64,000 nucleotides of DNA from Cellulomonas palmilytica (GTDB lineage: Bacteria; Actinomycetota; Actinomycetes; Actinomycetales; Cellulomonadaceae): the NCBI RefSeq assembly GCF_021590045.1, contig NZ_CP062221.1, positions 1,302,001 to 1,366,000 on the forward strand, given 5' to 3'. Numbering within the stretch: position 1 is the first letter of the stretch; every line of letters begins with the position of its first letter. Shown piece after piece: positions 5,696 through 45,349 of the stretch. Under the pieces are notes generated by a model. The model searched no databases, was not told the DNA's origin, and worked only from the letters and a program-made list of their open reading frames with translations. A program made the position numbers and the translations under genes.

Positions 5696-5816
5696 GACGA
5701 CCCGGTCGCGACGACCCCGCACCCTCGACGACCCGGTCCCGACGACCCCGCCCCTCGACCACCCGGTCCCGACGACCCCGCCCCTCGACGACCCGGTCCC
5801 GACGACCCCGTCCTCG
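5696..5816. repeat. 30-bp tandem repeat, four copies
   Basis: Four consecutive units (31, 30, 30, 30 bp) of the pattern GACGACCCGGTCCCGACGAC followed by CCCGCCCCTC lie 31 bp after the MFS stop. Units 2 and 3 differ at one base. Open frames here run through several phases on both strands and look like repeat artefacts rather than a gene. No other gene is seen in 5665-6187. Confidence 0.85.
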
Positions 5817-5853
5817 CTCGCGGACCGACCCCCGACGCCGCGAGCAGCAGACT

Positions 5854-5998
5854 CGTCGCGCCTCCCGCCGAGACCGTCATCACTCGCGGTATGGACGACG
5901 GAAGCCGGAGGAACCGCGGGTTCGTCGTCGCGCCTCCCGCCGAGACCGTCATCGCTCGCGGTATGGATGACGAAAGCCGGAGGAAGCGCGGGGTCGCG
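5854..5998. repeat. Two tandem copies of a 73-bp palindrome-containing repeat
   Basis: Copies at 5854-5925 and 5927-5998 share CGTCGCGCCTCCCGCCGAGA then CCGTCATCxCTCGCGGTATG, and end GAAGCCGGAGGAA(C/G)CGCGGG(T/G)TCG. The 3' half (AGCCGGAGGAAGCGCGGGGT) is nearly identical to repeats at 43.5-43.9 kb and related to the hairpins at 14.4 kb. This defines a dispersed REP-like family in this genome. Confidence 0.85.
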
Positions 5999-14390: not shown

Positions 14391-14444
14391 GACCCCGCGC
14401 TTGCTCCGGCTCCGACCGCCGGAACCCGGAGCAACCGCGGGGTC
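14391..14444. repeat. REP-like hairpin, possible terminator
   Basis: GACCCCGCGCTTGCTCCGG and CCGGAGCAACCGCGGGGTC are 19-bp arms with one mismatch around a 16-nt loop, 53 bp after the CAP gene. The arms match the palindrome found at 43.4-43.9 kb. It lies between convergent genes, so it may act as a terminator. Confidence 0.85.
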
Positions 14445-14465
14445 GGCCGTGCCCGACCCGCCGAG

Positions 14466-14513
14466 ACCGTCGTTGCTCCGGCTCCGGGGCGCGGGAGCCG
14501 GAGCTACGACGGT
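14466..14513. repeat. Second REP-like hairpin
   Basis: ACCGTCGTTGCTCCGGCTCC (14466-14485) and GGAGCCGGAGCTACGACGGT (14494-14513) form 20-bp arms with one mismatch around loop GGGGCGCG. CGAGACCGTCGTTGCTCCGG recurs exactly at 43877 inside an eCIS gene. The remaining 230 bp to rocD are G-rich low-complexity sequence with no supportable gene. Confidence 0.85.
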
Positions 14514-14743
14514 GTGGGGGCGGGACGGCCGGGGTGGGTCAGGACCGACCCCGCCACGGCTCCGGGAGTGGAGGGGAGTCACCGGAGGGATGACGGGGTC
14601 GGCGGCTGGGTCGGGCCGGGAGGCCCGGGGCGAGGTCGTCGTGCGGCGGGGTGGCCGGCGCGGCGGGGTCGTGGGCGGGGCGGTCGGGTCAGGTCAGACG
14701 GGTCAGACGGGTCCGCGGGGTCAGGGGGTCACGTCAGGGGGGG

Positions 14744-15967
14744 TCACGTCAGGGTGCGCAGGGCCGTGGCGGTGCGCGTGAGGGCCTCGGTGAGGTCCGC
14801 GGGGCTGATGGTCAGCGGCGGCGCCAGACGCAGCGTGCGGCCGTGCGTGTCCTTGGCCAGCACGCCCGCACCCAGCATCGCCTCGCACGCGGCCCGGCCG
14901 GTGCCGTGCGGCACGTCCAGACCGGCCCACAGCCCGAGGCGCCGGTAGCCGGTGAGCAGCCCCTGCGCGGTCATGGCGTCGAGCGCGGCGCCCAGCTCGA
15001 GCCCGCGGGCGCTCGCCGCGGCCTGCACGTCGCCGGGCGTCAGCAGGTCGATCACGGCGAGCGCGACCGCGCACGCGAGCGGGTTGCCGCCGAACGTCGA
15101 GCCGTGCGTGCCGGGGGTCAGCACGCCGAGCACGTCGGACCGCCCGACGACGGCCGACACGGGGAGGATCCCGCCGCCGAGCGCCTTGCCGAGCGTCACG
15201 AGGTCGGGCCGCACGCCCCACGTCTCGCACGCGAGCGTGCGACCGGTGCGGCCGAGCCCGGACTGGATCTCGTCGGCGACGAGCAGCACGCCGGCCTCGT
15301 CGCACGCGGCGCGCACGGCGGGCAGGTACCCGTCGGGCGGCACGACGACCCCGTGCTCGCCCTGCACGGGCTCGAGCAGCACGGCGACGACGGTCTCGTC
15401 GAGCGCGTCCCGCAGCGCGGCGGCGTCGCCGAACGGCACGGTCCGGAAGCCGGGGGTGAAGGGTCCGAAGCCGGTGCGGGCGTCGGGGTCGTCGGAGAAC
15501 GACACGATCGTCGTCGTGCGGCCGTGGAAGTTCCCGGCGGCGACGACGATCGTCGCGCGGTCCGGCGCGATGCCGCGCGTCTCGTAGCCCCACTTGCGCG
15601 CGGCCTTGACGGCGGTCTCGACGGCCTCGGCGCCGGTGTTCATGGGCAGGACGAGCGGGTCGCCGCCCAGCGGACCGGGTGCCAGCAGGGGCCCGACGAG
15701 CGCGGCGAGCGCGTCCGCGAACCGCGGCAGCAGGTCGTGGTCGAACGCGCGGCTCGTGAGCGTGAGCCGGTCGAGCTGCGCGTGCGCGGCGGCGACGAGC
15801 GCGGGGTGCCGGTGGCCGAAGTTGAGCGCGGAGTAGCCCGCGAGCAGGTCGAGGTACCGGTGACCCTCGTCGTCGGTCACCCACGCACCCTCGCCCGAGA
15901 CCAGCGTGACGGGCAGGGGCGCGTAGTTGCGCGCGAGCCGGCTGACGGACGTGGTCGTGGCGGTCAT
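14744..15967 (-). CDS. rocD: Ornithine aminotransferase
   Basis: 407 aa class-III PLP aminotransferase. It converts ornithine + 2-oxoglutarate to glutamate semialdehyde + glutamate in arginine/ornithine catabolism. Conserved features are LDLLAGYSALNFGHRHP, NTGAEAVETAVKAARKWGY, GNFHGRTTTIVSFS, LLVADEIQSGLGRTG and the Schiff-base lysine in LVTLGKALGGG near residue 261, followed by GTHGSTFGGNPLAC. N-T-G-A-E-A rather than N-S-G-A-E-A favours RocD over ArgD. It lies 34 bp downstream of ddaH, so the two form one operon. Confidence 0.93.
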   Translation of the reverse strand: MTATTTSVSRLARNYAPLPVTLVSGEGAWVTDDEGHRYLDLLAGYSALNFGHRHPALVAAAHAQLDRLTLTSRAFDHDLLPRFADALAALVGPLLAPGPLGGDPLVLPMNTGAEAVETAVKAARKWGYETRGIAPDRATIVVAAGNFHGRTTTIVSFSDDPDARTGFGPFTPGFRTVPFGDAAALRDALDETVVAVLLEPVQGEHGVVVPPDGYLPAVRAACDEAGVLLVADEIQSGLGRTGRTLACETWGVRPDLVTLGKALGGGILPVSAVVGRSDVLGVLTPGTHGSTFGGNPLACAVALAVIDLLTPGDVQAAASARGLELGAALDAMTAQGLLTGYRRLGLWAGLDVPHGTGRAACEAMLGAGVLAKDTHGRTLRLAPPLTISPADLTEALTRTATALRTLT

Positions 15968-38837: not shown

Positions 38838-40597
38838 CAGTTGATCTTCACCATCGTTCCCTTGACCTCGGCGACGGCACCGGACTCGACGACCGTCGAG
38901 GCCGTGCCCTTGAACGTGGCGGTCATGCCCTGCAGCGCGAGCCCCGTGCCCGCCTTGACGGCGACGTCCGCGGACGACGAGACGTCGACCTTGGAGCGGG
39001 CCTTGAGCTCGAGCGTCGTGCCGGTGAGCGTGACCTTGCCGTTGCCGTCGAACGCGAGCGACGACTGCCCCGCGTTCAGCGTGAGCGGCACGCCGTCGGG
39101 CGCCTCGAGCACCACGGCGTCCTTGCCGACCCGCAGCCGCGCGCCGGACGCGAGGCTCAGCAGGATGTGCTGCTCGGCGTCGCTCGTCCCCTCGGACAGC
39201 TCGATGACGTGGCCCGTGCGTGTCTTGATGGCCTGCGCGACCACCGCGCCGTCCTCGCCGATCGCCGCGCGGTGCGGCGCCGCCTTCGTGCCGTACAGCC
39301 CGCCGATCACGACCGGCCGGTTCGGGTCGTCGTTCTCGAACCCGACGAGCACCTCGTCGCCCACGTGCGGCAGGAAGAGGTGCCCGCGCCCGCTGCCCGC
39401 GCCGGGCTGCGTGACGCGCGCCCACGCGGACTTCGCCTGGTCGCTCGCGGTCGACAGGGACACGCTCACGCGCCCGAGCGCGTCGGGGTCCTTGACGTTG
39501 TCCACCACGCCGACGACGAGCCCGCCGCGCCGGAACGTGGACGCCGCGCTCGTCGGCGGCGCGGCGACCAGCCGCACGGGGTCGCGGTCGCCCGCGACGA
39601 ACGCCGTCGTCGACCCCGCGCGGTCCACCGTGTGCGTCACCTCGCGCACGTAGTAGGCGCCCGAGTTGGGACCCATGCCCGCCACGGACACCGTGGTGCC
39701 GGGCCGCAGCGTCGGCTGGTAGAGGCAGCGCCCGCGCGCGACGATCCGGCCGGTGCGCGCCGCGAGGCCCGTGGCGACGGCCTGCGCGTCCTCCTGCGAG
39801 GACGTGCTCGCGTGCGCGTCGGTGCGCGTGAACGTCGCGTCGCTGTTCTGCGGCTGCCGTCCCGCGCGCGGGCTCGGGGTCTGCGCGCTCGCCGTGACCG
39901 CCTCCTGCGCCTTCGGGTCCCAGCCGCGTACCGTCACCTCGGTCGTCGCGTCGGTCACCTGCCGCACCGCGAACGCCAGCAGGTTCACCCCGGCCGTGAG
40001 GTCGTCTGACGTGCCCAGCGAGCCCGACGACGCCGACCACACGTGCAGCGCCTGCCCCTCGACGACCCAGTCGCACCCGTACCGCACCGCGATGTCGTCG
40101 ATCGTCGCGAGCGCGGTGTCGCTGCGCAGCGCGAACGCCACGGGGGCCGTCGGCAGCTCCGCGACCTCCGCCGTCAGGCCCGCGTCCCCGACGAGCTGCG
40201 CGACGACCTGCGTGTACGACATCTCGTGGAACGTCGTGACCTCCGCGCTGCGCGTGAGCCCGACCCCGAAGTCGTCGACCGTCACCGTGAGCTGCAGCTC
40301 GCCGCGCTCCGTGAGCGCCGACTCGACCGCCGTCACCGTCCCCGTCAGCAGCGTCGTCGACGCCAGCCCCTGCGTCGTGACCGACGAGATCTCCACCGCC
40401 TCGCCGATCGCGAACGTGCTCGACCCTGCGAGCGCGTACGCCGAGTCCGTGAACCGCAGCCACGCCCGCCCGATCGTGCGCAGCGCCCGCTCCACCCGCA
40501 ACGACTCGAGCTGGTCCGTCCACTCCTCGGCCAGCTCTTGCCCGGCCACGAGGATGCGCGGCCAGGTGAGCGCCTTCTCGTCGCGCAGGACCGTCAC
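38837..40597 (-). CDS. VgrG-like spike protein (gp27/gp5 fusion, Afp8-like)
   Basis: 586 aa from GTG 40597. Residues 1-340 resemble the gp27/gpD hub (TLLTGTVTAVESALTERGELQLTVTVDDFG; YTQVVAQLVGDAGL; VRYGCDWVVEGQALHVW). From about 380 is the gp5 OB-fold (GVVDNVKDPDALGRVSVSLSTASDQ...WARVTQPGAGSGRGHLFLPHVGDEVLVGFENDDPNRPVVIGGLYGTKAAP). The C-terminus is the triple-stranded beta-helix needle with repeating V-x-L-x-A/G pattern. There is no lysozyme insert and no C-terminal effector extension. It overlaps the LysM gene by 4 bases (GTGA). Confidence 0.93.
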   Translation of the reverse strand: MTVLRDEKALTWPRILVAGQELAEEWTDQLESLRVERALRTIGRAWLRFTDSAYALAGSSTFAIGEAVEISSVTTQGLASTTLLTGTVTAVESALTERGELQLTVTVDDFGVGLTRSAEVTTFHEMSYTQVVAQLVGDAGLTAEVAELPTAPVAFALRSDTALATIDDIAVRYGCDWVVEGQALHVWSASSGSLGTSDDLTAGVNLLAFAVRQVTDATTEVTVRGWDPKAQEAVTASAQTPSPRAGRQPQNSDATFTRTDAHASTSSQEDAQAVATGLAARTGRIVARGRCLYQPTLRPGTTVSVAGMGPNSGAYYVREVTHTVDRAGSTTAFVAGDRDPVRLVAAPPTSAASTFRRGGLVVGVVDNVKDPDALGRVSVSLSTASDQAKSAWARVTQPGAGSGRGHLFLPHVGDEVLVGFENDDPNRPVVIGGLYGTKAAPHRAAIGEDGAVVAQAIKTRTGHVIELSEGTSDAEQHILLSLASGARLRVGKDAVVLEAPDGVPLTLNAGQSSLAFDGNGKVTLTGTTLELKARSKVDVSSSADVAVKAGTGLALQGMTATFKGTASTVVESGAVAEVKGTMVKIN

Positions 40598-41250
40598 GAG
40601 TCGATCCTCGGGACCGTGAGGAGGGACCCGGGCCGCAGCGCCAGCGGGTCCGTGATGCCGTTCGCCGCCGCGAGCGTGCGCCAGCGCGTCGAGTCGCCGT
40701 AGTACGTCGCCGCGATCCGGTCGAGCGTCTCGCCCGACTGCACGCGGTGCACCCGGTGCGGCTTCGGTGTCCCCGACGTCGGGTTCTGCCGCCCGAACGC
40801 CTGCGACTCCTCGTACTGCCGCAACGTCAGCGACACCGTCGCGCGCAGCGGCGTGCCCGACCCGGAGAAGTACGTGAACGTCAGGTCCAGGTCCGTGACC
40901 ACCGCCTTGAACGAGTGCAGGTCGCCCCAGTGGAACGTCACGTACGGCGGGCGCGCGTTGTGGCTCGACTCGTCCGTGCCCGGCAGCGACGGGTCCACGT
41001 CCATGAGCGCGACGACCTTGCCCGTGTGCGCCGCCACCGACGACCCGTCGTTCGTCGTGTCGAAGAACAGGTCCACGTGCAGCACGCCCGACGACGCCCC
41101 CGTGTACCGCAGCCGCGGCACCCCGCGCCCCGGCACCGGCGCACCCGCCCACGAGTTCGACCGCGTGAGCTGCAGCTGCGCCGGGTTGAACAGGCACGGC
41201 ACGCGCGTCCCGCCCTCGATCTCGAGGAACGCCTTCTCGATGCCCGTCAT
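40594..41250 (-). CDS. LysM-containing hub/adaptor protein (Afp7-like)
   Basis: 218 aa. The N-terminal part (MTGIEKAFLEIEGGTRVPCLFNPAQLQLTRSN and VLHVDLFFDTTNDGSSVAAH) is the conserved domain of eCIS tube-initiator proteins. The C-terminal 50 residues are a LysM (HRVHRVQSGETLDRIAATYYGDSTRWRTLAAANGI). In Afp/PVC and R-type systems the equivalent sits between tube and hub; the LysM packs in the baseplate rather than binding wall. The ATG overlaps the stop of the large upstream gene by one base. Confidence 0.92.
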   Translation of the reverse strand: MTGIEKAFLEIEGGTRVPCLFNPAQLQLTRSNSWAGAPVPGRGVPRLRYTGASSGVLHVDLFFDTTNDGSSVAAHTGKVVALMDVDPSLPGTDESSHNARPPYVTFHWGDLHSFKAVVTDLDLTFTYFSGSGTPLRATVSLTLRQYEESQAFGRQNPTSGTPKPHRVHRVQSGETLDRIAATYYGDSTRWRTLAAANGITDPLALRPGSLLTVPRIDS

Positions 41251-44200
41251 CAGAACACCTCCGACCCCACCCGCCACGCGCGACGCTCGGTCTCCTCCTC
41301 GAGCCGCCGCTCCACGAGCCGCAGCACGTGCTCGTCCAGCTCGTCGCGGTTCCAGCGCTCCAGCTCGGCGATCCGCTCGACCAGCCGGCGTTCGACCTCG
41401 TCGACCAGCGACGACGGGTCGCCGGCGACGGGCGCGGGGACGAACCCGTCAGGGGCGGGCAGCGACATGGCACCTCCCGGGAGGGACGAGGGTGGTCCGA
41501 CGAACGGGTCGCCGACGACGAGCGGGGCAGCGTGACCGGTGACCGCCGCGGGCCCGGTCCACTGCGCGGCGAGCGAGGCGATCGCGCTGCTCGCGAGCGT
41601 CGGGTCGGCGGTCCCGCGCGCGGCGTCCGCGAGCGCGAGCGCGGCGGTGGGGGACAGCCCGTCCGTCGCGGCCGCGGGTCCGCCCGACGCGGCCGCGTCG
41701 GTGCGGTGCGACGCCACGGCCGGACGGCCGGGCTCCCGCAGGGACGCGCCCCGCGGGGGCGCGACGTTCCACGACGTCGGCAACGGGGGAGCGGCGAGCG
41801 CGCTCGCGGGCGGTGCCGTCCGGGGCGTCGTCCGCGCGCGCGGCCGAGCGGGCCGCCCACCGAGCCGCCCCGACACCCACCTCCGCACGACCGCCGAGAC
41901 CGACCCCGGGAGCTCAGCAGCACCGCCCGGCTGCGACGAGCCCATGCCCGTCACCCCGGACGACGCACCGACCGCACTGCTCACGCCTGCGCCCAGGACC
42001 GCCCCGGGCCCGACGACGCCGCGCGACGTCCCCGCCGCGTCGGCGGACCCCGCGCTCGCGGGCGCGGAGCCCGACCGCGAGGTCGCCGCTGAGCCGATCG
42101 ACCGCCGGACCACCGGAGCACCCGCGGGAGCGATGGGCGACGAGGACCCCCCGACAGACGACGCAGACGTCGTGCCCGTCGACCTCGACGCCGGCAGCGC
42201 CGACCGCCCAGCCGCCCACCCGGACGGCGACGATGCGGGACCGGCTGACCACCCGGATGACGACGACGCGGGACCGGCGGACCACCCGGATGACGACGAC
42301 GCCTGGCCCGCCGACCACGCACCCGTGGTGGCTCCAGGGTCGAGCGCGCTGCGTCGGACGACGCCCGCCGCGGCGAGAGCGGACGGCGCGGGTGCGGGAG
42401 CAGCCCCCGAGGCCGGGCGCACCGTCACCGGAGCGAGCGCGGCCAGCACCGACCCGGGTCCGTGGCCCACGAGCCCGCCGGCCGGCCCGCCGACCTCCCA
42501 CGAGGCCACGGCCGCGAGCCCGCCGCCGCCCTGCCACGAGGCCACCGCTCCGGGCCCGCCGCCGACCTGCGACGGGGCCCTCGCTCCGACCCCGCCGCCG
42601 ACCTGCGACGGGGCCCTCGCTCCGACCCCGCCTCCACCGCGTTCCGATGCGGCCCCGGACCACGCAGCGCGGCCCGTGCCACCCGGCGCTGCGCGGCCTC
42701 CGCCGCTCGCGGGGTCGACCGTCGGTGCGTAGCCGGACCGTGGGGTGCGCGGACCACCAGGACGGCTGGGCCCAGGCGCGCCTCGTCCGCCGTGGCCGGG
42801 AGCGCTCGGCGTGGATCGCGTGGCGCGTCGGATCGGGCCGGGCTCGATCCCGAGCGGACGGCCGGGGTCGTCGGACCAGTCCGGCCGGTGCCCCGCCCGC
42901 CGGTGCCCCGCACCGGGCAGCCGCCCGACCCCGTGCGCGCTCGACCGCCGCACCAGCCCGCCGCCGTCCGCCGCCCCGCCGTGCGCACCCGACCCGGCGT
43001 CGCCCCCCACGGGACGCACCGTCGAGCTGCCGGGACCCGTCGCCCGCGAGGACGCGGCAGCCGACGAGGCCGCGGCCGAGGGTGCAGTCGTCGAGCCCGA
43101 GCGCGAGGACGCGGCCAGGGTGCTCGTCGGGTCTGGGCGCGGCGAGGAGGTGAGTGCGCTCGTCGTCCCGCCGGGGCGCGACGACGAGGGGAGAGCGCTC
43201 GTCGTCGCCCCGGCCGAACCGCTGGGCGTCTTCTCCGACGCGCGCCGCGCGAGCTCGGACGCGATCGGGGCGTTCGGCGCGACCGACCGTCGTGCCCGTG
43301 CGGTCGGATCACCGGTGGTACCGGTCGAACCCGGGACCGACCGCCCCAGCACCCGGGTCACAGCGCCCACGAACCGCCGCACCACGGCAGGCAGCGGCGC
43401 CGCGGCGTCGCCGGTCGCCCGCGCGAGCCTCCCCACCGACCGACCACCCCCGTCATCACTCAGGGAACGACCACCCGCAGCCGGAGCAACCCCGGCCTCG
43501 ACGGACCTCCTCCCCACGACCCCGTGCTCGCTCCGGGAATGACCCACCGAAGCCGGAGGAACCGCGGCCTCGACGGACCGCCTCCCGACGACCCCGTCGT
43601 CGCTCCGGGAATGAGCCACCGAAGCCGGAGGAAGCGCGGGGTCGGCGGAGCGCCGTCCGGTGACCCCGTGGTTGCTCAGGGACTGGCCCGTCGGAGCCGG
43701 AGGAAGCGCGGGGTCGAGTGAGCTCGTTCCCGCGGTCGTCCCTGGTGGGTCCGACGACGGTCCGGACGATGCGTTGCCGGCCCCCGCCGTCCCGCCGGCT
43801 CCGACGACCCCGTGGTTGCTCCGGGTGTGAGTCGTCGGAGCCGGAGGAAGGGCGGGGTGGGCGGGGTTCGTCGCGACGAGACCGTCGTTGCTCCGGGAAT
43901 GGCCGGGCGAAGCCGGAGAGATGGCGGGGTCGGCGGGGGTGGCTGCTCGGGCGGTGCGGGCGGCGGCTGCAGCCGAGGCGAGCGCGCGGCGGCGCAGGAG
44001 GCGGCCGCCTGGCAGCGGCGCCGGGGACGCCGGGCCCAGGGCGCGGTCCGCCGCCACGGTCGTCGAAGTCGGGGCGGCGGCCACGGTCGGGGTCGGGGTC
44101 GGGGCCAGCGCCGGGGTCGGGGCCAGCGCCGGGGTCGGGGTGGTGGGGGTGGGGTGCAGGGGGGAGCGGCGGAGGGAGGTCGTCGTCGGCGCGCTCGTCG

Positions 44201-44840
44201 GAGTCCGGGTGCCCGCGGCGGGCGCGGGGGACGACGCTCGCCCGGACCCCTCGCGGTCCCCCGGGGGACCGGGCCGGGGCTCGGGCAGGGCGTGTGGCTC
44301 GGGCAGGGCGCGGGTGGAGCGGGGGCGGGCGCCGTCGGCGGAGGTGAGCATGCGGCCGGCGGCGCGCACGTCGTCGGCGACGCGCACGCGGATGGTCTGC
44401 GGTGCGAGGCGCGCGGGCGCGGCGCCGGGCTGGCGGGACTCCTGGGTGGGGATGCGCTGGACCATGAGCGGCAGGCCGCGCGGCACCTCGCCGGCGTCGG
44501 ACTCGGGGAGGTCGTGCTGGTGGCGCACCGCCGCGGTCTGCGCCCACCAGCGCGGCGGTGCGACGTCGGCGCCGCGGGACCGGACGTGCACGGGCGAGGG
44601 GCCGGCGAGCGCGCGGCGGACCTCGACGGGTCGGCCCCAGCCGGTCGCGAACCGCACGGACGACGACGCGAGCGACCCGATCGGCGAGGGCCGCGCGTGC
44701 CCGGGCCGGGGGCCGGGTGGGGCCATGCGGCGCGCGACGGCCCGGCCGAGGCGGTTGCGGTCGTCGGACGAGCCGGTGGCGGCGGGCACGCCGGCGACCG
44801 TCGGGAGCCCGACGGTCGCGCTGCGCGGCTGCTCGCTCAC
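41250..44840 (-). CDS. Large Pro/Ala/Ser-rich eCIS protein with 24-residue repeats
   Basis: About 1196 aa from GTG 44840 (VSEQPRSATVGLPTVAGVPA). No known fold is recognised. The first 170 residues and last 60 look ordered, ending in a charged helix (LVDEVERRLVERIAELERWNRDELDEHVLRLVERRLEEE). The 900 residues between are low-complexity with recurring VVRRS and a 24-residue unit of pattern DPALPPASVAHSRSDDGVVG at about 303-466. Position between the second tube protein and LysM, and coupling (TGATG) to LysM, mark it as part of the particle operon. A length ruler or internal tube cargo are possibilities. The middle could be partly mis-framed, but no stop interrupts it. Confidence 0.7.
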   Translation of the reverse strand: MSEQPRSATVGLPTVAGVPAATGSSDDRNRLGRAVARRMAPPGPRPGHARPSPIGSLASSSVRFATGWGRPVEVRRALAGPSPVHVRSRGADVAPPRWWAQTAAVRHQHDLPESDAGEVPRGLPLMVQRIPTQESRQPGAAPARLAPQTIRVRVADDVRAAGRMLTSADGARPRSTRALPEPHALPEPRPGPPGDREGSGRASSPAPAAGTRTPTSAPTTTSLRRSPLHPTPTTPTPALAPTPALAPTPTPTVAAAPTSTTVAADRALGPASPAPLPGGRLLRRRALASAAAAARTARAATPADPAISPASPGHSRSNDGLVATNPAHPALPPAPTTHTRSNHGVVGAGGTAGAGNASSGPSSDPPGTTAGTSSLDPALPPAPTGQSLSNHGVTGRRSADPALPPASVAHSRSDDGVVGRRSVEAAVPPASVGHSRSEHGVVGRRSVEAGVAPAAGGRSLSDDGGGRSVGRLARATGDAAAPLPAVVRRFVGAVTRVLGRSVPGSTGTTGDPTARARRSVAPNAPIASELARRASEKTPSGSAGATTSALPSSSRPGGTTSALTSSPRPDPTSTLAASSRSGSTTAPSAAASSAAASSRATGPGSSTVRPVGGDAGSGAHGGAADGGGLVRRSSAHGVGRLPGAGHRRAGHRPDWSDDPGRPLGIEPGPIRRATRSTPSAPGHGGRGAPGPSRPGGPRTPRSGYAPTVDPASGGGRAAPGGTGRAAWSGAASERGGGGVGARAPSQVGGGVGARAPSQVGGGPGAVASWQGGGGLAAVASWEVGGPAGGLVGHGPGSVLAALAPVTVRPASGAAPAPAPSALAAAGVVRRSALDPGATTGAWSAGQASSSSGWSAGPASSSSGWSAGPASSPSGWAAGRSALPASRSTGTTSASSVGGSSSPIAPAGAPVVRRSIGSAATSRSGSAPASAGSADAAGTSRGVVGPGAVLGAGVSSAVGASSGVTGMGSSQPGGAAELPGSVSAVVRRWVSGRLGGRPARPRARTTPRTAPPASALAAPPLPTSWNVAPPRGASLREPGRPAVASHRTDAAASGGPAAATDGLSPTAALALADAARGTADPTLASSAIASLAAQWTGPAAVTGHAAPLVVGDPFVGPPSSLPGGAMSLPAPDGFVPAPVAGDPSSLVDEVERRLVERIAELERWNRDELDEHVLRLVERRLEEETERRAWRVGSEVF
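43445..43933. repeat. 72-nt-period palindromic repeat array inside the large eCIS gene
   Basis: Units begin at 43445, 43517, 43589, 43661, a degenerate one near 43733, then 43805 and 43877: exactly 72 nt each, 24 codons. A typical unit is CGACCCCGTCGTCGCTCCGG, then a GAATG-containing spacer, then GAAGCCGGAGGAAGCGCGGG GTCG. The arms CTCCGG/CCGGAG and GACCCCG/CGGGGTC make each unit an imperfect hairpin. The same element occurs between genes at 5.9 and 14.4 kb. Confidence 0.9.
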
Positions 44841-44884: not shown

Positions 44885-45349
44885 TCAGGAGGCCGCGGCG
44901 CGGAAGCCGTTGTGCGCGACCTCGAGGGTCTCGACGAGCGACTCGGCGACCTCGGCGGACAGGCGCGGACCGGACCACGCGACGGCGAACACCCCGTCGA
45001 GCTGCCAGGACCGCAGGCGCTTGCCGGTGCCGTCGACGACGGTCACGGCGCCGGTGGCGCGGGTGAGCGCGTTGCCGTTGCCCGCGAACTCGTCGCCGGA
45101 GGTCTTGGTGACCCACGAGAACAGGGCGTCGGAGTTGACCAGGCCCCGCCGGAACACGAGGTTCGGCCAGCGCATGACGCCGGGGAACCGGTGCACGTAC
45201 TGGTTCTGCCCGCCCTCGACGTACTCCTGCGTGGTCACGACGAGCTCGAGCCCGCTGACCTCCTTGAACGCGCCGATCTCGACGCCGTCGACCTCGAACA
45301 CGAAGTTCGCCGCGACGGGGGCGTCGCCGCCCAGCGGTGCCTCAGGCAC
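44885..45349 (-). CDS. Second inner-tube protein (T4 gp19 family, Afp5-like)
   Basis: 154 aa from GTG 45349. It has ANFVFEVDGVEIGAFKEVSGLELVVTTQEYVEGGQNQYVHRFPGVMRWPNLVFRRGLV, then SWVTKTSGDEF and GVFAVAWSGPRLSAEVAESLVETLEVAHNGF, the classic conserved tail-tube sequence. In Afp/PVC the Afp5-type copy forms the first tube layers on the hub while the main tube protein polymerises above. It overlaps the DUF6760 gene by 8 bases. Confidence 0.92.
   Translation of the reverse strand: MPEAPLGGDAPVAANFVFEVDGVEIGAFKEVSGLELVVTTQEYVEGGQNQYVHRFPGVMRWPNLVFRRGLVNSDALFSWVTKTSGDEFAGNGNALTRATGAVTVVDGTGKRLRSWQLDGVFAVAWSGPRLSAEVAESLVETLEVAHNGFRAAAS

Follow-up and report, generated by a model that had tools for sequence, protein, structure and literature searches.

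A REP-like palindrome family of Cellulomonas with an in-frame array inside an eCIS gene

REPIN/RAYT systems consist of paired palindromes, with one family per lineage. Rickettsia palindromic elements (RPEs) were reportedly described by Ogata in 2000 and 2002. In the account by Di Nocera et al. (2013, PMC3733652), REP units are 20-40 bp long, mostly intergenic, near gene 3' ends, and present in dimers and clusters. The same account states that some REPs of the GTAG and CGTC superfamilies lie entirely in ORFs of several species and that, in Thauera and R. conorii, clusters of coding REPs specify stretches of 43 to 82 residues (PMC3733652). RPEs are described as elements of approximately 150 bp, nearly half of them in ORFs, that are read in frame within genes (PMC10969869). 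PARCELs (palindromic amphipathic coding repeats) are, in their description, defined by the coding repeat (PMC2996958). Coding REPs and RPEs are thus established as a phenomenon. Among titles and abstract openings in the open-licence literature we found no relevant account of palindromic repeats of Cellulomonas, and in the open-licence literature we found none that treated REPs and open reading frames together with RAYT and actinobacteria.

We analyzed an array of palindromes in a window of 64,000 nt (the whole stretch of DNA under study). Six 54-nt imperfect palindromes follow each other with spacings of 72, 72, 72, 144, and 72 nt (Table 1). The array spans 43446-43931 and is wholly within, and in frame with, an open reading frame that begins with GTG at 44840, so that it corresponds to 162 residues (304-465) of a 1196-aa protein. 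The stretch DPALPPASVAHSR is one example of the peptide sequence predicted from the array. The initial annotation had correctly placed the repeats in frame inside this protein and had recognized in them the hairpin that is also found between genes at 5.9 kb (starts at 5870 and 5942) and at 14.4 kb. It had also counted seven consecutive units. We found six, and one slot in which no palindrome was recognizable, with fewer matches to the consensus than the mean of 18 at other positions of the region. The 72-nt register runs on through this slot, and that part of the description holds.

Table 1. Coordinates of the array, its host gene, neighboring genes, and intergenic copies in the window
Feature	Position	Strand	Remarks
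Host gene, 1196-aa low-complexity eCIS protein	41250..44840	-	conserved at both ends (first ~230 aa, last ~80 aa)
eCIS tube protein (PF06841)	44885..45349	-	upstream neighbor of array gene
CIS_tube + LysM protein (PF19266, PF01476)	40594..41250	-	downstream neighbor of array gene
Palindrome unit	43446..43499	.	encodes aa 448-465 on - strand, EAGVAPAAGGRSLSDDGG
Palindrome unit	43518..43571	.	aa 424-441, EAAVPPASVGHSRSEHGV
Palindrome unit	43590..43643	.	aa 400-417, DPALPPASVAHSRSDDGV
Palindrome unit	43662..43715	.	aa 376-393, DPALPPAPTGQSLSNHGV; closest mate elsewhere 91%, within array 85%
Slot in 72-nt register without recognizable palindrome	43734..43787	.	13/54 positions match consensus
Palindrome unit	43806..43859	.	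aa 328-345, HPALPPAPTTHTRSNHGV; closest mate elsewhere 87%, within array 85%
Palindrome unit	43878..43931	.	aa 304-321, DPAISPASPGHSRSNDGL; closest mate elsewhere 87%, within array 78%
Intergenic palindrome pair	5870..5995	.	72 nt apart
Intergenic palindrome trio	14391..14600	.	starts 14391, 14463, 14547; 72 and 84 nt apart

The host gene is in an eCIS locus, as had been proposed. Two tube (gp19) genes (PF06841) and genes for the sheath (PF04984/PF17482), CIS_tube/LysM (PF19266/PF01476), baseplate V (PF04717), gp25 (PF04965), and baseplate J (PF04865) occur together. The array protein matched no Pfam family and has low complexity, with 18% A, 14% G, 12.5% each of S and P, and 10% R. The protein (41250-44840, minus strand) contains nine [VIL]RR motifs, compared to 1.6 expected after shuffling, and 12 complete orthologues and two database proteins contain 7-14 each (1.0-2.0 expected). 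Judged from its residues, this [VIL]RR-rich low-complexity chain looks like a multi-site binding protein. The gene also has tandem repeats of 33, 36, and 39 nt (42216-42302, 42487-42632, and 43124-43213); these lengths are multiples of three, and the repeats are in frame.

The array occupies a variable linker of the eCIS gene. Of 58 genomes searched, 14 have the tube protein at E<=1e-20, namely that of the window and those of 13 among 35 congeners. In each of these 13 congeners, the gene that follows the tube gene matched the array protein in its N-terminal part, and in eight of them the C-terminal part was matched as well (tblastn). Twelve of the 13 orthologous genes are open to a stop, and the remaining one is cut by a contig end. 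In the 12 loci that contain the whole orthologous gene, R1, a covariance model of the palindrome, had no match inside that gene. There were two weak R1 matches in the 13 eCIS loci (L082, 20.8 bits, E 0.018; L075, 17.6 bits, E 0.1); their coordinates place one within the tube gene and the other past the end of the gene, and therefore neither is inside the array gene. The array was absent from every relative examined and is known from one genome. The repeat-free orthologues are approximately 1000-1340 aa long. In the three of 15 relatives' proteins that our pattern measured, the linker matching the array site was 120 aa (G025, locus L075), 283 aa (G031, locus L077), and 69 aa (P0002, a database protein). 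In the array protein the two blocks that bound the linker begin at residues 279 and 505.

The palindrome is present in many copies elsewhere in the genome. R1 (a 55-nt hairpin) was made from 11 copies in the window, the six in the array and the five at 5.9 and 14.4 kb. The genome-wide count that the initial annotation had called for found at least 96 sites in at least 44 clusters on the chromosome (3.83 Mb, one contig). Because the 11 window copies are source rows of R1, the independent evidence is the remaining 85 of the 96 listed sites, together with the absence of matches from 52 of the 55 genomes screened under stricter filters (see below). The array units scored 57.4-77.9 bits, far above chance, and the unit at 43590, one of the source rows, had the highest score of the genome (77.9 bits). 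The consensus of the listed sites has 19-nt arms, GACCCCGCGGTTGCTCCGG and CCGGAGCAACCGCGGGGTC, around a 16-nt loop, with 17 modelled pairs in 54 nt. Four R1 matches in the window were excluded from the 96: 15346-15397 (27.0 bits), 5804-5855 (17.1 bits), and 42046-42085 and 864-933 (15.4 bits each). The first of these outscores the weakest retained site (22.7 bits); we rejected it as a family site, as it is in an aminotransferase-like gene (by eye) with an ordinary protein reading and without the arms.

Most copies are just downstream of genes. Forty-one of the at least 44 listed clusters are outside genes, as determined with a home-made codon-model gene finder plus the eCIS ORF; the array gene itself largely escapes this finder, and captures within further genes of low complexity may do so too. 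The three clusters inside genes are two flagged by the finder and the eCIS array. For the 41 listed clusters outside genes, the median distance to a gene 3' end was 44.5 nt (27/42 within 60 nt) and that to a gene 5' end was 150 nt (2/40 within 60 nt). The flanking genes are convergent at 11 clusters, divergent at 10, and in tandem at 20, by eye no enrichment, and we rejected the idea that the palindromes are terminators between convergent genes. One third of the chromosome (1.66-2.86 Mb) is nearly free of the element, with one of the 44 listed clusters.

The family has a narrow distribution. With stricter filters, at which some weak matches are lost, the palindrome was detected at E<=1e-5 in three of 55 genomes (the window's genome and relatives G025 and G026) and in none of the other 52. 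A strict DNA pattern, which fits 47 of the 96 listed sites, was used in a search of genome contigs that may omit the window's genome and those near to it. It found 25 stretches, every one of them in Cellulomonas uda NBRC 3747. The C. uda sites used below were chosen with this pattern and do not represent the genome at random. The best reading of these results is that the palindrome is a lineage-restricted REP-like family, present singly, in pairs, or in short arrays, mostly just downstream of genes.

The geometry of the element is compatible with translation. The palindrome (54 nt), the spacer (18 nt), and the period (72 nt) are all multiples of three. Frame 0, the frame used in the array, has a stop in two of the 90 listed non-array palindromes on either strand, whereas in each of the remaining four frames 10-22 of the 90 have one. 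These two counts match the column-shuffled means (2.5 and 3.3), and we rejected selection for an open frame in the intergenic copies. Two other frames were just under the shuffled range (10 versus 11-20, and 14 versus 15-32), for which we offer no explanation. Given the triplet lengths and one frame nearly free of stops on both strands, reading through in frame requires no special selection. The initial annotation had regarded a preserved frame as rare. That the frame is remarkable here was not supported: the intergenic clusters share the 72-nt period, and frame 0 is as poor in stops as column composition predicts.

Palindromes are read in the same frame in two more genes of the window's genome and in one gene of G026, all unrelated to each other and to the eCIS gene. 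In an RNase H gene (PF00075, E 1.4e-29), a pair of palindromes is between the enzyme domain and the final residues, DPLF. The best 11 orthologues among 38 congeners with a match all terminate in [DE][TV]LF, and the G026 orthologue has no palindrome pair at that place. C. uda has a pair at the same place and in the same frame, before MDPLF; in this gene the reading frame is kept in a relative. The RNase H units of the two genomes are 78% and 69% identical, with no third-position excess. The RNase HI orthologues (L107:2433-3098, L131-L142) retain the C-terminal [DE]-x-L-F behind a variable linker, a tail that we take to resemble a short interaction motif, e.g., a sliding-clamp binder. The second gene (L093:2379-3629) is one ORF in which a palindrome pair joins what we take to be an SGNH-hydrolase-like domain to a GNAT-like domain. 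Among 39 other genomes, the GNAT part matches alone in 28 and the SGNH part alone in two, and both SGNH homologues end at their own stop. In the G026 gene, presumably an Rrf2-like regulator, the C-terminal tail is encoded by a palindrome. In checking 28 clusters of G025 and 23 of G026 (in G026, part of the known sites), we rejected other flagged overlaps as captures: in G025, a palindrome that overlaps the end of a gene by 25 nt and a weak match of 24 bits within a gene, and in G026, a small gene located between palindromes.

We infer, with a probability of approximately 0.73, that a REP-like palindrome with triplet-compatible geometry entered the disordered linker of the eCIS gene in the window's genome, grew there partly by duplication, and is passively translated. 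Growth would have been at least in part by 72-nt tandem duplication, with the units at 43446, 43518, and 43590 sharing spacers, and at least the unit at 43878 would have arrived separately or been converted. Translation would be without evident harm to the protein, owing to lengths of 54, 18, and 72 nt that are multiples of three, a frame nearly free of stops on both strands, and a linker that tolerates changes in length.

The distance of 72 nt recurs outside the array. Among listed neighboring intervals under 400 nt outside the array, 28 of 47 are exactly 72 nt and 38 of 47 are 71-73 nt. The same interval accounts for 14 of 25 under 400 nt in G026 and 22 of 40 under 400 nt in the C. uda stretches; G025 has mostly solitary sites (one of five intervals is 72 nt). 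One C. uda locus (L248) is an exception, with six palindromes at approximately 119-nt spacing and a difference of +2 units and +487 nt. The exact period reported for the array is therefore real, and in register there, but not specific to it: it belongs to the element itself, not to the gene. The 18 nt after the palindrome are 43% identical within clusters and 39% between clusters of the window's genome; spacers thus drift while the distance from palindrome to palindrome mostly holds.

It is possible, although less likely than not, that some machinery, or a nucleoprotein or RNA structure, sets the palindromes 72 nt apart and thereby supplies genes with in-frame 24-residue modules. Because 72 is divisible by three, a process of spacing would deliver such modules wherever an ORF runs into palindromes, and they would then enter linkers, C-terminal tails, and gene fusions. 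Such a process would fit a distance that stays fixed while the spacers drift towards unrelated sequence, and also the finding that one or more of the eCIS array units resemble their neighbors no more closely than copies elsewhere. Two candidates for mobilization were rejected. PF01797 (RAYT) had no match at E<=1 in the window's genome, whereas a control search was positive in 10 of 14 genomes. A mobilizing gene beside the clusters was rejected as well: all-against-all blastp of the genes flanking the 41 clusters found no recurrent mobile gene. The one recurrence between distant clusters was a biotin-carboxylase-like pair (by eye), and the others were a local duplicate in L095 and genes common to adjacent clusters.

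We considered it unlikely that the array acts at the level of RNA or DNA in the eCIS operon, e.g., through mRNA hairpins that lower expression of downstream baseplate genes (here, those downstream of the tube genes). The RNA of the array folds better than shuffled sequences (z -4.4, 0/100), and the proximity of intergenic copies to gene 3' rather than 5' ends is REP-like. In addition, arms persist across orthologous intergenic units of the window's genome and C. uda (identity 0.88), with more drift in loops (0.62) and in spacers (0.53), in a comparison of 18 unit pairs, nine clusters of equal unit number, and nine spacers, the means of which are raised by one wholly identical cluster. However, non-orthologous pairs have nearly the same arm identity (0.85, with 0.44 for loops and 0.41 for spacers), and the arm signal may thus be family identity and not local constraint. 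Furthermore, 78% of the stem cells in the array are paired, a share that none of 500 shuffles of the array columns undercut (mean 80%), compared to 84% in the other units, and the array has no two-sided stem change. Compensatory change in the stem of the non-array copies was not demonstrated: there were 38 two-sided cells versus a shuffled mean of 31 (maximum 43), and the paired fraction of 0.844 was close to the shuffled 0.839 (maximum 0.850). Two miRNA matches were far under the gathering score; we took them as chance and rejected membership in a known RNA family.

Growth of the array from one captured unit solely by slippage or unequal recombination, as in a VNTR, seems to us quite unlikely, although part of the array behaves in this way. 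The units at 43446, 43518, and 43590 are alike in the palindrome (0.78-0.89) and in the spacer on the sides they share (0.67-0.89). The similarity of each to its best mate in the array was reached by none of 5000 samples of five other units each, and this likeness makes a 72-nt duplication likely. For the units at 43662 and 43806, the best mates in the array (0.85) were reached by 20% and 11% of samples, respectively, and the other in-frame tandem repeats of the protein would also fit a VNTR. In contrast, the best array mate of the unit at 43878 was reached by 68% of samples, no closer to the array than chance. The last three units all have their best matches elsewhere (0.91, 0.87, and 0.87) and have unrelated spacers; this evidence is weakened by the unequal choice of mates, 90 candidates elsewhere against five within the array. 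It may weakly suggest a separate arrival of the units at 43662 and 43806.

The number of units does change at intergenic sites. We compared 23 pairs of loci between the window's genome and C. uda, of which 18 had usable anchors, and 11 of 19 orthologous intergenic sites differed in unit number. The differences in length broadly track 72 nt per unit (+1 unit and +84 nt, +3 and +232, -2 and -152), with departures (-2 and -80, -2 and -233), and sites with equal numbers of units differ by up to 55 nt. The initial annotation had suggested that the array could expand or contract by recombination in steps of 24 residues. Change in unit number was seen at the intergenic sites, and a 24-residue change in the length of the eCIS protein is plausible.

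We saw no clear sign of codon-position constraint in the array. Among its six units, the per-site differences were 0.33, 0.16, and 0.26 at the first, second, and third codon positions, respectively, and among the other 90 listed units they were 0.33, 0.28, and 0.29. The ratio of third to first and second positions in the array (1.09) was reached by 20% of random six-unit sets of the others. The synonymous fraction among differing codons was 0.158, compared to 0.151 in resampled other units, 40% of which reached the array value. The lower variation at second positions (0.156 versus 0.281) hints at constraint, but neither summary test (0.20 and 0.40) supported this. The codon-position analysis proposed in the initial annotation was thus negative in both tests.

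These results bear on the suggestion that the 24-residue repeat is selected at the level of the protein, as a ruler or tether with the number of units setting its length. The strict 72-nt register within the gene, the 24-residue steps on offer with unit number varying at intergenic sites, and the low second-position variation would all fit such a role. Nonetheless, intergenic copies have the identical period, both constraint tests were negative, the repeat-free orthologues are approximately 1000-1340 aa long, and the three linkers that were measured range from 69 to 283 aa. We rejected the ruler or tether on the negative tests and the wide natural range of linker length, consider it very improbable, and a ruler role in this gene is now less to be expected. 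An intergenic position of the array, with the long ORF as a high-GC artefact, is scarcely credible: the home-made codon model skips the middle of the gene, but the conserved blocks before and after the array share one frame, and 12 orthologues and two database proteins are open through their full length.

The preferred reading, capture of a palindrome and passive translation, indicates that the geometry of a repeat (length, spacing, and a frame poor in stops) can decide whether a mostly non-coding repeat is taken up as protein. With its orthologous sites in C. uda, this actinobacterial system can be used to test the origin and the copy-number change of coding palindromes.

The Cellulomonas family can be compared with four described systems. 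Like REPIN/RAYT systems, it has paired palindromes and is specific to a lineage; unlike in them, the window's genome has no match to PF01797. It shares with PARCELs the tandem protein repeats and coding DNA with dyad symmetry, and differs in that the intergenic palindrome is the main form. It resembles RPEs in having palindromic DNA in frame inside unrelated genes, whereas three of the 44 listed clusters of the window's genome are in genes, and its units are in tandem. It can also be set beside the intragenic REPs of the GTAG and CGTC superfamilies. Both are dispersed palindromes, mostly intergenic (here at least 96 sites in at least 44 clusters, 41 of them outside genes), near gene 3' ends (27/42, versus 2/40 for 5' ends), in dimers and clusters, with some in ORFs. 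The Cellulomonas family differs in its longer unit (54 nt versus 20-40 bp), in the absence of PF01797 from the window's genome, and in its tags: GTAG/CTAC is in the end windows of 0 of the 96 listed sites, and there is no uniform CGTC (CGTC in 19/96 and GACG in 36/96, counted in GC-rich DNA without a chance control). Further differences are its 72-nt period, the poor conservation of its spacers, and the 162 residues that the array region covers. The eCIS array is a large example of a known, little-studied phenomenon. The palindrome family and its triplet-compatible period appear to be new, as do the large size of the captured array and its location within an eCIS gene.
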